DNA of 35,715 nt from Salinivenus iranica (GTDB taxonomy: Bacteria > Bacteroidota > Rhodothermia > Rhodothermales > Salinibacteraceae). Below, in pieces: positions 23,649 to 29,764 of the stretch (positions are counted from its first letter, which is position 1; every line of letters starts with the position of its first letter). Made by a program: the position numbers and the translations under genes. The stretch covers positions 1 to 35,715 of the forward strand of contig NCRB01000026.1 in NCBI GenBank assembly GCA_002894665.1. Direction: 5' to 3'. A model generated the notes under the pieces. That model saw only the letters and a program-made list of their open reading frames with translations. It was not told the origin of the DNA and ran no database searches.

Positions 23649-24679
23649 ATGCCCTCGTCCCGCCGCCAGTTCCTGGCCCTTGCCGCCACGGGGGCCGCCG
23701 CTGTTGCCACCCGCCCCTGGCGCACCACGCACGCCCTGATGCCGCCCTCGGCCGCGTGGCGATCGGCCCCCGCCCTGCCCGCATCCACCCAGGAAGTTTA
23801 CGGCACCGCGTGGAACGGACGGGTCCTGGTGGCCGGGGGGCTCCGCTCCACTGCGGACAGCCGCCGCCGGTTTACCACGCTCGGGCAAACCGCCCTCTTC
23901 GACCCCACAACCGAGACGTGGTCGATGGGCCCCGACCTCCCCGCCCCGCGGCACCACATCGTCCTCGCAACGGAGGGCGACACGGCGTACGGCTTCGGGG
24001 GGGCTTCGTCGGCGAAAACCTCGCGCAGGACGGCTTCCAGTTCCGCGACGACGTGTACGCGTTCGACGGCGACGCGTGGACCCGCGCCGGCTCGATGCCG
24101 ACGCCGCTTGGCGAGACGGTCGCCCTATCGGTCGACGGGCGCGTCCACCTCGTCACCGGCAGCCTGCACGGCGAACGGACCGGCCCGACCGGCACCCACC
24201 TCGTGTACAATCCGGACACCGACGACTGGACGGAGGCGCGCCCGGCCCCCACCGCCCGAAGCAGCGCCACCGGCGCCGTGATCGACGGAATGCTCTACGT
24301 CGCCGGAGGGCGCACCACGCAGAACGGGGTGACCAACCTCGGCGCGCTGGAGTGCTACGATCCGGCCTCCGACACCTGGACCGAACGCCGCTCCCTCCCC
24401 CAGCCGTCGGGCGGACTGAACGGGGCGGCCACGGGCGGCACGCTCTACGTCTTTGGCGGCGAGTACTTTTCGGACGGCGGCGGGGTCTTCGGCGAGACCT
24501 GGGCGTACGACCCGGCGGCGGACGACTGGACGGAGTTGCCCTCCATGCCTACGCCCCGGCACGGCCTCGCCGGCGTCGCCCTGAACGGGCGCGTCTACGC
24601 CGTCGGCGGCAACACCGCCCCCGGCATCGGCGCCGCCACCTCATCCACCGTCGAGGCCCTCGTGCCCGCCGCCACCTGA
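23649..24679 (+). pseudogene. Tat-exported kelch-repeat protein, frameshifted at a G7 tract
   Basis: The 5' part (frame of 23649) begins with a twin-arginine signal (SRRQFLALAATGAAAVA, residues 4-20), predicting Tat export, then kelch repeats (WNGRVLVAGG; FDPTTETWSMGPDLPAPRHH). At the seven-G run 23997-24003 this frame becomes nonsense. The continuation of the kelch sequence (GFVGENLAQDGFQF...) is in the frame one base on and runs to the stop at 24679. Removing one G joins the two halves into a continuous product of about 343 aa with five or six kelch blades: FDGDAWTRAG, YNPDTDDWTE, YDPASDTWTE and YDPAADDWTE are visible blade ends. Kelch propellers bind ligands or, in some exported forms, act as sialic-acid-type mutarotases; the function here is open. 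It may be a true mutation, a phase-variable tract or a read error. Confidence 0.85.
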
Positions 24680-24709
24680 TCCGCGCTCCGCTCACAATCC
24701 CGCCTCGCC

Positions 24710-25354
24710 ATGACCATCGACGTCTACGCCGACATCGCCTGCCCCTGGTGCTACGTCGGCCGCGCCCATCTCAAAAACGCGCTTGCCCAACGGCCGGCCC
24801 TCAACGTTACGCTCCGGTGGCGCCCCTTCCAGCTCCAGCCCCACATGCCCCCCACGGGCCGCGACTTCCGGAAGGTGCTATCGGAGAAGTTCGGCGGGTG
24901 GGACCAGGCACAACAGACGTTCGAGCGCATCCAGGACATGGGGGCCGAGGACGACCTCACGTTCGACTTCGAAGCCATCGAGGTGGCCCCCAACACGGCC
25001 GACGCCCATCGCCTCATCCTCTGGGCGCAGGACCAGGATCCGGAGGCGGCCGACGCCCTGGCCACCACGCTCTTCCGGGCCTACTTCACGGAGGGGCGCA
25101 ACGTGTCCGACCCGGCCGTGCTGGCCGACGGCGCCGCCGAGACGGGGCTCGAGGCCGACGCAGCGCGGGCGGTGCTGGAGGGGGACGACTACGCGGAGGC
25201 CGTACGCACGAGCCAGCAGCAGGCCCAGCGGCGCGGCATCACGGGCGTCCCGTGCTACGTCTTCGGCGACGAGCACGCCCTCACCGGCGCCCAGCCGACG
25301 GACGTGTTCGTGGAGGCCCTCGACACCCTCGCCCCCGACTCCTCTACGGGATAG
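24710..25354 (+). CDS. DsbA-family oxidoreductase, FrnE-like
   Basis: 214 aa. Thioredoxin-fold protein with the redox motif CPWC (C11-C14) right after the first strand (IDVYADIACPWCYVG) and the cis-proline strand ITGVPCYVFG near residue 183. The inserted helical domain and the absence of a signal peptide place it in the cytoplasmic FrnE group, also called 2-hydroxychromene-2-carboxylate isomerase/DsbA-like. These are thought to exchange disulfides or to isomerise polyketide intermediates; a general thiol-redox role is the safer guess. It follows the kelch gene by 30 bp on the same strand. A 15-bp tandem duplication covers its stop codon. Confidence 0.9.
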   Translation: MTIDVYADIACPWCYVGRAHLKNALAQRPALNVTLRWRPFQLQPHMPPTGRDFRKVLSEKFGGWDQAQQTFERIQDMGAEDDLTFDFEAIEVAPNTADAHRLILWAQDQDPEAADALATTLFRAYFTEGRNVSDPAVLADGAAETGLEADAARAVLEGDDYAEAVRTSQQQAQRRGITGVPCYVFGDEHALTGAQPTDVFVEALDTLAPDSSTG

Positions 25355-25371
25355 AACTCTACGGGATAGAG
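25342..25371 (+). repeat. Tandem 15-bp duplication over the stop codon of the DsbA-like gene
   Basis: CTCTACGGGATAGAA (25342-25356) is followed directly by CTCTACGGGATAGAG (25357-25371), 14 of 15 bases equal. Because the unit is five codons, the stop TAG is repeated in frame 15 bases later. It looks like a replication-slippage duplication. Confidence 0.8.
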
Positions 25372-25405
25372 CACTCTCCTTCGTCCACCGGCTCTTCGCT
25401 CCCCC

Positions 25406-26899
25406 TCACCCTCGCTCTTTGGCCGTCGTCTCGTCCCACTCGTAGCCCGAGGTGAGGGAGGCGTACTGGGGATCGCGCTCGGCGGCCTCGTCGTGGGGAA
25501 GGCTGCCGCGGTGCGAGCGCAGGTACGTGAACGGCGTGTGGTGCAGAAAATTCGAGACGCGCCCGGTGTACACGTCGGCGTAGCGCTCCACCTGGCGGGC
25601 GAAGAGGCTCTTGTCCTTGCCGGTGCGCATGAGGGGCCCCCAGTTGTCGTTGACCAGCTTGCTGGACGCCTTGGCGAGGGGCGCAATCTTCTGGTCGAGG
25701 GACGTCAGCCGGCTGCGGAGGTCGCTCATCTTCTGCTCCAGGACCTCTACGCTATCCGCCTCGGCGGCCCCGTACCCCTTCTGCAGGCGCTGTCGCTGCA
25801 ACCGCTTGGCGGAGAACTCCGCCTCCAATCGCTCCTTCTCCGCCATCAGCTCCGACAGCTGCTCCTGCTGGTCGGCAAATTCCTGAAAGTCCTCGATTTC
25901 CTTCTCCAGTTCGCGCACCACCAGGGCCGTGCGCCAGCGCAGCACCTTCTTCGATACGTTGACGTCCACGAACAGGTGATCGCCGACGTATAGGATTTCT
26001 TCCCCGCGCAGGCCCAGGCTCTCCTCCACCAGCGACGCGTTGCCGCCCACGTACACTTCGTCCTCCTTCAGCGGCCCGTTCGTGTGCTCGCGCAGGAGCC
26101 CGTCCTCGCTCTCCACCCGAAAGGCCGGCATGCGGACCGAGAAGAAGTCCGGCTTGCGGGCCCCCACGATCGAAAGGTCGAAGAGGTCACGCCACGTCAT
26201 CTCGCCCGGCAGAAACTCGTTGAAGGCGTACGCCAGCATCGGGCGGGCGTAGCTCCACTCCGAGTTCGTGATGAGGAGGAGCTTCTTGCCCGCGCGCTTC
26301 TGATCGAGAAGCGTGAGCGGCATCTCGGGGTCGAGGTTCACGAAGCGTCCGGGGTGGGCAATGATCTTTTCCTTGAGACGCCCCTCCATGTGGGCCTCGT
26401 CGAGGGTCTGCTGCACCTCATCCCAGAGGTCGGCGTAGCCCATCGATCCCTTGATGGCGTCCGCATCGAGCAGCTCCACGAGCTGCATGTACATGGAAGC
26501 CGACGAAATGGAGAAGAGGGTGTTGAGGAAGTGCCAGCGGTCCTCTCCGAGATCCACGAGCGTGCGCTGATACACCTCGCGCTGCCGCTCGTAGCCGAGC
26601 GGCTCGGTCCCGTGGAAGGCCCGCTTCACGTACCCGAAGCGGTTGGCCTTCACCACGTTGCCGTGCTCGGTGTCGATGACAAGCCCGCGGATGGCTAGGT
26701 CCGGGTTGAAGGCGAGATTCTCGACCGGCCACCCCTTCGCCAGCAGGCCTTCTTTGATGAAGCCGTACGCCCGCTGCTCCCACTCGCGCATGTGGTAGTG
26801 CACGAGCGTGTAGTCCATGTCGTACCCGATGGCCTTGATGCCGCGCAGGTTGAGCGTACGGTTGCAAAAAAGACCCCGGGCGGGATCAATGGTGTCCAT
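25406..26899 (-). CDS. HAD-IG family 5'-nucleotidase (cN-II-like)
   Basis: 497 aa, cytoplasmic. HAD motif I is DMDYTL (D27 nucleophile, D29 acid/base). The order continues with LLLITNSEWSYARPML (motif II serine/threonine region), RKPDFF (motif III lysine) and EILYVGDHLFVDV (motif IV aspartates). This matches the IMP/GMP-specific cytosolic 5'-nucleotidase family; bacterial members probably dephosphorylate purine mononucleotides. A charged, Leu-rich coiled-coil (about residues 335-420) separates the core from the C-terminal segment, with KSLFARQVERYADVYTGRVS as a further conserved part. The start MDTIDPARG at 26899 fits the family; an in-frame ATG upstream (MLGARAF) adds only about 14 residues. 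No operon partner is close; the plus-strand gene before it ends about 50 bp away, convergent. Confidence 0.9.
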   Translation of the reverse strand: MDTIDPARGLFCNRTLNLRGIKAIGYDMDYTLVHYHMREWEQRAYGFIKEGLLAKGWPVENLAFNPDLAIRGLVIDTEHGNVVKANRFGYVKRAFHGTEPLGYERQREVYQRTLVDLGEDRWHFLNTLFSISSASMYMQLVELLDADAIKGSMGYADLWDEVQQTLDEAHMEGRLKEKIIAHPGRFVNLDPEMPLTLLDQKRAGKKLLLITNSEWSYARPMLAYAFNEFLPGEMTWRDLFDLSIVGARKPDFFSVRMPAFRVESEDGLLREHTNGPLKEDEVYVGGNASLVEESLGLRGEEILYVGDHLFVDVNVSKKVLRWRTALVVRELEKEIEDFQEFADQQEQLSELMAEKERLEAEFSAKRLQRQRLQKGYGAAEADSVEVLEQKMSDLRSRLTSLDQKIAPLAKASSKLVNDNWGPLMRTGKDKSLFARQVERYADVYTGRVSNFLHHTPFTYLRSHRGSLPHDEAAERDPQYASLTSGYEWDETTAKERG

Positions 26900-27255
26900 A
26901 AGAGGCGGAGGGAACGAGGCAAAGGCGCGAGCGCCCAACATACAGAATGTACGCCGGGCGCGGTAAACGCGTCCTCTCACGGATTGCTTCGTTACGAAAC
27001 GAACACGCGCCTCGCTGGCGCAGGGCCGCCCGGTCGGGGGGGTGGCGGGCACTCGGCTGCGGGGGGCGCAGCCCCCATCACCCGTCCGCCCCTCGCAGCG
27101 GCGTGGCGCTGGTTTCCGCCCCGGACACTCACATTCCCCAGTGCGTGTATCAGTGGCCCTCGCGGGCGTCCTCCGACGCGTGAAGCGCCTGCCCGATTGG
27201 ACAGGCGACGCCCTGAGGACCCGTCTCTGCTCTTTCGTCCAACACGCGCCCCCCG
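26900..27255. other. 356-bp divergent intergenic region
   Basis: Between the nucleotidase (-) and the DoxX-like gene (+). I see an inverted repeat TTCGTT/AACGAA (26988-27003, 4-nt loop), a GGGGGC/GCCCCC hairpin around 27061-27077, and a weak minus-strand promoter-like pair: TTTA (26964-26967 as read on plus TAAA), 21 nt, then TATGTTGG (plus CCAACATA at 26935-26942), near the TAnnTTTG pattern. No credible gene is visible; open frames are arginine-rich and unlike proteins. Confidence 0.4.
26935..26967 (-). promoter_or_regulatory. Weak Bacteroidota-like promoter for the nucleotidase gene
   Basis: On the minus strand TTTA, 21 nt, then TATGTTGG. The minus-7 part differs by one base from TAnnTTTG. 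It lies about 36 bp before the ATG at 26899. The upstream element is poor, so this is only a suggestion. Confidence 0.28.
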
Positions 27256-27641: not shown

Positions 27642-28391
27642 CTACTCCTGCTGGTCGGTCGGCATCACGAGCAGCTCCTCCACGTCCACGCGCTCCGGGG
27701 CCGTGAGGGCGTAGCGAATGGCCTCGGCGATGTCCTCGGACTGGAGCATCTCCATCCCCTCATGGCCCTCCTCCATCCCCTCCAGCACGTCGGTGTCGGT
27801 GATGGTGTGGGGCAGTTCCGTATCCACCGCGCCCGGCTCGATGGTGGTCACCCGAATGTTGTGGTCGGGCGCCAGCTCGTTGCGCATGCCCTCCGAGAGC
27901 GCCGTCACGAAATGCTTGGTGCCGCAGTAGACGGCCCCGCCGGGAAAGACGCGGCGCCCGGCCACCGACGACACGTTCACGACATGCCCGCCGCCCTGCT
28001 CCAGCATGTGCGGGAGGGCCGCTTCGATGGCGTACAGCACGCCCTTCACGTTCACGTCTACCATCTGCTCCCACTCGTCGCCGTGCACGTTCTTCATGAG
28101 GGAGAGCGGCATGATGCCGGCGTTGTTGATGAGCACGTCGACGCCGCCGAAGGCATCGAGCGTGGCATCGATGAGGGCCTGCACCTGATCGCGATCGGTG
28201 ACGTCGGTGGGCACGACCCGGGCGGTGCCGCCGTCCGCTTCAATCTCGTCGCGGAGCGCATCGAGGCGTTCCCTGCGGCGAGCGGCCAGGACTACGTTTG
28301 CCCCCTCATCGGCCAGCTGGCGGGCGGTCGCCTCGCCGATGCCGCTGGAGGCGCCGGTGACGATGGCAGCGGTGTCGGTCAGGTCGGTCAT
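27642..28391 (-). CDS. Short-chain dehydrogenase/reductase (YdfG-like)
   Basis: 249 aa classical SDR. TGASSGIG (12-19), INNAGIMPLS (88-97), S142 in VNVSSVAGRR, Y155 and K159 in VYCGTK. The MPLSLMKNVHGDEWEQMVDV stretch is typical of the NADP-dependent serine/3-hydroxy-acid dehydrogenase (YdfG) group, and ARRRERL after strand 2 fits NADP(H). It would act on small hydroxy compounds in the cytoplasm; true substrate unknown. The acidic C-terminal part (EGMEEGHEGMEMLQSEDIAE) is a normal family feature, more acidic here. The start ATG at 28391 precedes the first strand. It is convergent with the DoxX-like gene and follows the metallophosphoesterase gene by 104 bp on the same strand. Confidence 0.9.
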   Translation of the reverse strand: MTDLTDTAAIVTGASSGIGEATARQLADEGANVVLAARRRERLDALRDEIEADGGTARVVPTDVTDRDQVQALIDATLDAFGGVDVLINNAGIMPLSLMKNVHGDEWEQMVDVNVKGVLYAIEAALPHMLEQGGGHVVNVSSVAGRRVFPGGAVYCGTKHFVTALSEGMRNELAPDHNIRVTTIEPGAVDTELPHTITDTDVLEGMEEGHEGMEMLQSEDIAEAIRYALTAPERVDVEELLVMPTDQQE

Positions 28392-28495: not shown

Positions 28496-29110
28496 CTACG
28501 GCGACGCCTCGAGCTCCCACCCGCGTCCCTCCGGCCCGGCATTCACGACGGGCGTCCCGGCCAGGGTGTCCGTTTCGCCCCAGCTGCCGTGGATGTGGCC
28601 GCAGACGACGAGGCGGGGCGCGGTCGTTTCAATGGCGTCGCGCACCGCGGTGCTCCCAAGGGAGCGGCCGCTGGAGTCCCGGTCCACCGCGCCCTTGGGC
28701 GGGGAGTGCGACACGAGGACGGCCCCCTCCGGGCAGTCCGCAAGCAGATCTTCGGCCTCCGCCTCGGTGAAGTCATAGCTCCAGCCGCCGAAGGGCGTGA
28801 CGGGCACGCCCCCGCCCAGGCCGTAGAAGGGGATGCCCGCCACCGTCTCGCCGTTGCCGTGCAGCACGTGGGCGGCGGGCCACTCCCGGCAGGCCTCGCT
28901 CAGTTCCTCGGCACTCTCGGCGTTGCCCGGCACCAGCACGGTGGGCGTGTCGAGGGCCGAGAGGCACTCGATGGTGGGCTGCAGGCGACGGCGCATCACC
29001 GCAAAGTCGCCCGCCCCGACCACCGCGTCGGCGGCGGGGGCCCGGTCCACGAGGGCCCGGCAGGCGTCGAGGTCGTTGTGGACGTCGCTAAAGAGCAGGA
29101 GTTGAGGCAT
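28496..29110 (-). CDS. Calcineurin-like metallophosphoesterase
   Basis: 204 aa. The dimetal phosphoesterase motifs are present in order: SDVHND (D9, H11), GAGDF (D35), PGNAES (N63; the usual GNCD/GNHE), SHSPP (H135) and GHIHGSW (H172, H174). The family hydrolyses phosphomono- or diesters with two metals; short stand-alone members like this include YfcE-type phosphodiesterases, but the substrate is unknown. The ATG at 29110 puts the first strand at the N-terminus; longer in-frame extensions run through the neighbouring gene. Its ATG is only 4 bp after the stop of the DUF971 gene, so translation is probably coupled. Cytoplasmic. Confidence 0.9.
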   Translation of the reverse strand: MPQLLLFSDVHNDLDACRALVDRAPAADAVVGAGDFAVMRRRLQPTIECLSALDTPTVLVPGNAESAEELSEACREWPAAHVLHGNGETVAGIPFYGLGGGVPVTPFGGWSYDFTEAEAEDLLADCPEGAVLVSHSPPKGAVDRDSSGRSLGSTAVRDAIETTAPRLVVCGHIHGSWGETDTLAGTPVVNAGPEGRGWELEASP

Positions 29111-29114
29111 GGGA

Positions 29115-29453
29115 TCAGGTCGGATCGTCGTCGGCAGGCTGAAGCGAACGAAGGCGGTCCCATCGGTAGATGCCGCCGCTGTGGCCGTCGTCCCACGTGA
29201 TGCGGAGCCCCACGCTGCCGGCGGTCTCCACCGTGAGGTTCTGCCAGCGGTTCTTCTGGCGGAAGATGTGGAAGACCCCCGGCTTCGTGATGCGCTCCAC
29301 GTCGTCGCCCTGGCACTCGGCGCACGGGCAGGCCTGGCGCAGCGCATCGAGCGGAAAGACCGACACGTGCCCGTCGCTCCACTCGATGTTGAGCCGCTGC
29401 ATCTTTACGTCGACCGAGACGCGATCGGGCGGGGGAACGGTCATGGACGGCAT
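29115..29453 (-). CDS. DUF971 (gamma-butyrobetaine hydroxylase N-terminal-like) protein
   Basis: 112 aa. It shows the DUF971 fold order: MQRLNIEWSDGHVSVFPLDA, then a cysteine cluster ACPCAECQGDD (C42, C44, C47), VTV-like strands (LTVETAGSVGLRITWDDGHS) and the end GGIYRWDRLRSL. DUF971 is the small domain at the N-terminus of eukaryotic gamma-butyrobetaine/trimethyllysine hydroxylases; bacterial stand-alone copies often sit with iron-sulfur cluster or chaperone genes and probably bind metal or Fe-S through the cysteines. Its biochemical role is unsettled. It is 4 bp upstream of the metallophosphoesterase and 22 bp downstream of a small HTH-like ORF, all on the minus strand, so the three may be one transcript. 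Confidence 0.88.
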   Translation of the reverse strand: MPSMTVPPPDRVSVDVKMQRLNIEWSDGHVSVFPLDALRQACPCAECQGDDVERITKPGVFHIFRQKNRWQNLTVETAGSVGLRITWDDGHSGGIYRWDRLRSLQPADDDPT

Positions 29454-29474
29454 GCAACTGTGGGGCGGCCCCGG

Positions 29475-29675
29475 CTACGAGCGAGTGACCTCAAACCCTC
29501 CCTCCCGCAAAATGTCCGCGATCTTTTCCTCCAACTGGTCACTCTCTACAATGGTGAGCTCCGTCCCGCGCCGCACCTTGGACAGGAGCGTGTGCTTGTT
29601 CATATCGTCGATCTCCGCCGCAATGTTGGAGATTTTCAGGTACGGCTTCAGCGCCTGGAGTTGCTTGATGGTCAT
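29475..29675 (-). CDS. Small predicted helix-turn-helix protein
   Basis: 66 aa. I do not recognise a named family. The arrangement of helices (ISNIAAEIDDMNKHTLLSKV, then RRGTELTIVESDQLEEKI) looks like a small HTH domain of the type seen in Bacteroidota and phage regulators, where the second helix would read DNA. A Tyr-Leu-Lys-rich N-terminus precedes it and the C-terminus is short. The start at 29675 (MTIKQLQ) is preferred; an upstream in-frame ATG at 29726 would add a Cys- and Arg-rich leader without helical pattern. Just upstream is the AT-rich island with CATACG repeats, which could be its own operator (inference). Confidence 0.5.
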   Translation of the reverse strand: MTIKQLQALKPYLKISNIAAEIDDMNKHTLLSKVRRGTELTIVESDQLEEKIADILREGGFEVTRS

Positions 29676-29764
29676 GGGCGCGCCGCGATCTCGTGAACGA
29701 AGAGGACAGCAAGTGGGCTGCCGCATAGCCAGTTGGACCGATCAAGTTTCGACCGCACGATGAA

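Follow-up and report, generated by a model that had tools for sequence, protein, structure and literature searches.

In Salinivenus iranica, an isolated two-base insertion in a run of G residues has probably turned a single-copy, dispensable gene, predicted to encode an exported kelch protein, into a young pseudogene. The window analysed here is an entire contig of 35,715 nucleotides (35.7 kb), one of the 133 contigs of a 3.4-Mb draft genome (G000), which is the one genome representing the species. The nearest relative among the genomes compared (G001), which appears to be Salinivenus lutea DBO, has DNA 96.4% identical to the window over 18.4 kb. Orthologues were surveyed in 13 genomes of the genus Salinivenus, 10 of them at least 90% complete. 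The features of the locus are as follows.

23649..23996, + strand: 5′ part of the kelch gene; spans 116 codons of the ancestral frame and encodes the Tat signal and the first kelch motif
23997..24003, + strand: G7 run where the frame changes; S. lutea has G5 here, and other orthologues have two to six consecutive Gs
24005..24679, + strand: 3′ part of the kelch gene, in a different frame from the start codon; stop codon at 24677–24679
23649..24281, + strand: present open reading frame of 210 aa, whose final 94 residues lie outside the kelch frame
24710..25354, + strand: DsbA-family gene, intact (PF01323, E 1.6e-48); adjoins the kelch gene, also in several relatives

The initial annotation placed a G7 run at 23997–24003, where it would split a predicted Tat-exported kelch protein. 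The run is present there, and the two halves of the gene are found in different frames: phase 0 before the run and phase 2 after it. The upstream frame, which starts with the ATG at 23649, holds approximately one kelch motif (Kelch_6, E 1.7e-4), and the bulk of the kelch repeats falls in the 3′ part (24005–24676; Pfam Kelch_1, E 3.7e-26). Halves in phases 0 and 2 imply an offset of two bases relative to an intact copy, so the claim that removing one G would give back about 343 aa does not hold; the S. lutea copy has five Gs and encodes 342 aa. Deletion of one G was rejected as a repair because it leads not into the kelch frame but into the third frame, which runs on to 25455 and is open by chance, given a window GC content of 68.6%. 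A 459-aa shadow open reading frame in this third frame (24076–25455, + strand) crosses both the kelch and the DsbA genes.

The kelch gene is carried by 8 of the 13 genomes, S. iranica included (8 of the 10 with completeness of at least 90%). It is missing from the remaining 5 (2 of the 10), a distribution which suggests that the gene is dispensable. All seven other carriers have an unbroken orthologue, with one open frame of 340–342 aa, which bears out the annotation of the S. iranica gene as broken at a homopolymer. No second kelch copy was found in S. iranica at E ≤ 0.001. Since S. iranica alone has a broken copy, the change arose on its branch. The orthologue of S. lutea DBO (NCRC01000046.1, L045) is the same gene with the same neighbours, including the downstream DsbA gene, but has G5 and one open frame. 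The two genomes differ by two bases at the G run and nowhere else within the kelch gene, and amino acid identity between them is 94% in the 5′ part and 97% in the 3′ part; identity of the 5′ part to the six other orthologues is 59–63%. At the site of the run there are five consecutive Gs in G001, G003, G008 and G011, six in G004 and two in G005 and G010. In the last two the stretch is interrupted (GGAGGA and GGCGGC in two orthologues), and all seven orthologues encode YGFGGF at this site. A pattern search of viral_contigs found no other versions of the G-run site, and the papers listed for Salinivenus, for Salinibacter kelch proteins and for homopolymer phase variation in halophilic Bacteroidetes included nothing on the kelch locus.

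The most probable course of events is that the G run was lengthened by two bases, from the G5 of the closest relative to G7, probably via replication slippage. The lengthening would shift the last two thirds of the kelch beta-propeller gene out of frame, leaving a 210-aa product of approximately one kelch motif and a nonsense tail. With only about one motif kept, such a product should be unable to fold as a propeller. We infer that the chromosome really carries the two extra bases, that the insertion has become fixed and that the 210-aa product is inactive.

Both halves of the gene still bear the mark of purifying selection. Measured against S. lutea, the 5′ part has an omega of 0.235 and the 3′ part one of 0.233, and the probability of so few replacements under neutrality is 0.004 and 0.006, respectively. 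The corresponding values for the neighbours are 0.254 for the DsbA gene and 0.03 to 0.53 for the other neighbours kept, a range that leaves out 25493–25990 and 26084–26695 as antisense frames of a minus-strand gene. Purifying selection in both halves points to a recent break, with most of the divergence accrued while the gene still worked. The same patterns would be equally expected if the gene were intact and the assembly in error, or if it were still expressed through switching or recoding. Among the six replacements in the 3′ part, three are derived in S. iranica (no outgroup shares the residue; two under a stricter rule), three are ambiguous and none is clearly on the S. lutea side, while two of the seven replacements in the 5′ part look derived on the S. 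lutea side. The pattern in the 3′ part would fit recent release from selection, in numbers too small to support the claim.

A G7 run is in itself unsurprising in this genome, which contains 446 exact G7 runs (both strands, 3.4 Mb); five other genomes of the genus contain 401 to 693. The behaviour of such runs was followed in a sample of 380,237 bases of S. iranica (window included) and 1,134,528 bases of S. lutea, which overlap in 125,075 alignment columns, or approximately 4% of the genome. Of the 21 G or C runs of at least seven bases in S. iranica, 19 have the same length in S. lutea, including a C9 in both, and the same is true of 82 of the 92 runs of at least six, with some of the length-unchanged runs broken by substitution in S. 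lutea. Among the longer runs there are two exceptions: the kelch site, and a place directly after 27036–27042 where the two genomes differ by 8 bases. Coding indels were sought with a strict filter that demands, in each genome and on either side of the indel, at least 150 nt of open frame rich in GC3, and that misses short or weakly biased genes; it replaced a first, looser list, rejected because its open reading frame ends extend into intergenic DNA. Over the 125 kb, the strict filter returned two sites, the kelch site and L078 7065. The latter looks intergenic, as the coding signals of its flanks lie on opposite strands and neither genome has an intact frame. Apart from the kelch site, six indel sites were inspected (L075 4119, L074 14329, L078 7065, L077 17814, L076 18303 and window 29688), and none was judged a clear mid-gene break; L074 14329, where a weakly biased frame differs between the two genomes, is uncertain. 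The strict scan of 125 kb thus yielded no second clear coding frameshift relative to S. lutea. With run lengths mostly kept and no second clear frameshift, neither frequent slippage nor general homopolymer error is visible in the sample of approximately 4%.

The main rival to a young pseudogene is an error in the draft contig at the G7 run, with the gene unbroken in the chromosome, which we consider unlikely. The initial annotation had raised sequencing error in general terms. The sampled assembly shows no sign of a general homopolymer problem, and it is an isolated local slip that stays in contention. Such a slip is compatible with the draft state of the genome and with the conservation of both gene halves, but it needs a two-base over-call at one run in an assembly where the other runs of this length match S. 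lutea almost throughout and where the scan turned up no comparable break. In the excerpt of the GeneTack survey drawn on here (PMC3711429), singleton frameshifts confirmed by BLASTp are expected to be mostly sequencing errors and less often real indels, a point against the pseudogene and the reason for keeping assembly error as a rival. As far as that excerpt describes them, frameshift pseudogenes of the GeneTack class resemble the kelch gene in that a lone frame change occurs in one species, with the gene intact elsewhere and the shift site not conserved (PMC3711429). The kelch break, which lies at a G run and is seen in the single genome of its species, differs from them in no notable way.

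Phase variation, in which slippage at the G run would turn expression of the exported kelch protein on or off, was one of the readings offered in the initial annotation and is improbable. The run does sit at the frame change of a predicted exported protein, and its length does differ between species (two to six Gs in the relatives), but all seven other copies are in frame, which fits a plain mutation. Nor is the run kept as a homopolymer in the orthologues, and for a contingency tract its seven Gs are few. Moreover, equal runs are found by the hundred in the genome, and most G or C runs of seven to nine bases hold their length between the two species. In a GC-rich genome with hundreds of such runs, finding a homopolymer where the frame of an exported protein changes says little in favour of a switch. 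According to the excerpt of the GeneTack survey (PMC3711429), phase variation is called where there are repeats together with a known phase-variable function, and type III methyltransferase genes are named among the phase-variable genes. Like such poly-G genes, the kelch gene has a G run inside its coding sequence, here that of a predicted exported protein; unlike them, its run is short and not kept in relatives, and the other G or C runs in the sample show no sign of variable length. A special form of the idea, in which a young contingency tract was lengthened in S. iranica until slippable and now switches the exported kelch protein, is slightly less probable again. Should mixed run lengths prove true, the locus would represent an envelope trait under phase variation in a halophilic member of the Rhodothermota; we know of no phase variation in this group. 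As it stands, the result is a useful negative, and little hangs on the kelch break.

The least probable reading is that some full-length protein is made through a programmed −1 frameshift, or through slippage during transcription of the G run. A −1 shift would correct the offset, the position of the run is suitable, and both halves have been conserved. None of the seven relatives has the frame change, however, so the shift site lacks the conservation that the excerpted GeneTack survey requires for a programmed frame change (PMC3711429), and the 87 nt downstream (24004–24090) fold no better than shuffled sequences (z +0.84; 167 of 200 shuffles were as stable or more so). Phase variation and recoding are both unsupported here, their positive evidence being limited to the presence of the run.

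The product of the intact gene is predicted to be a Tat-exported kelch beta-propeller. The twin-arginine signal of the window open reading frame scores weakly (TIGR01409, 17.9 bits; cut-off 16.7), and the S. lutea protein gave no match to this profile at E ≤ 0.01; an RR motif is present at the N terminus of all seven other orthologues. By Pfam the intact protein is a kelch propeller, and it is similar to solved kelch propellers, namely designed SAKe proteins and Keap1. It is weakly like the NanM/YjhT kelch mutarotases, with which it shares kelch repeats and partial profile similarity, but its scores of 62.6 bits against a cut-off of 416, and 55.7 against 256.35, fall far below the curated NCBIfam thresholds. 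On these scores, a mutarotase function cannot be assigned.

Several observations concern the surroundings of the gene. In G003 the DsbA gene is reduced to an 18-residue match at its start (E 8.3e-4), located as follows.

L016 about 1300–1480; G003:C1 near 3332666–3332719, − strand: DsbA remnant, 18-residue match

In G011 no DsbA match was found, and in G012 the DsbA gene is present and the kelch gene absent. The kelch–DsbA pair seems to have been lost piecemeal within the genus. Further along the window, the open reading frame at 27645–28391 (− strand) has a dS of 0.28 relative to S. lutea, compared with 0.04 to 0.14 for the other neighbours kept, and may stem from a recombination event that brought in the version of a more distant relative. 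Within 29109–29763 (+ strand), the two genomes differ by one base at 29687–29688, near the 3′ end of overlapping open reading frames, which changes the last codons of a frame ending at 29696.
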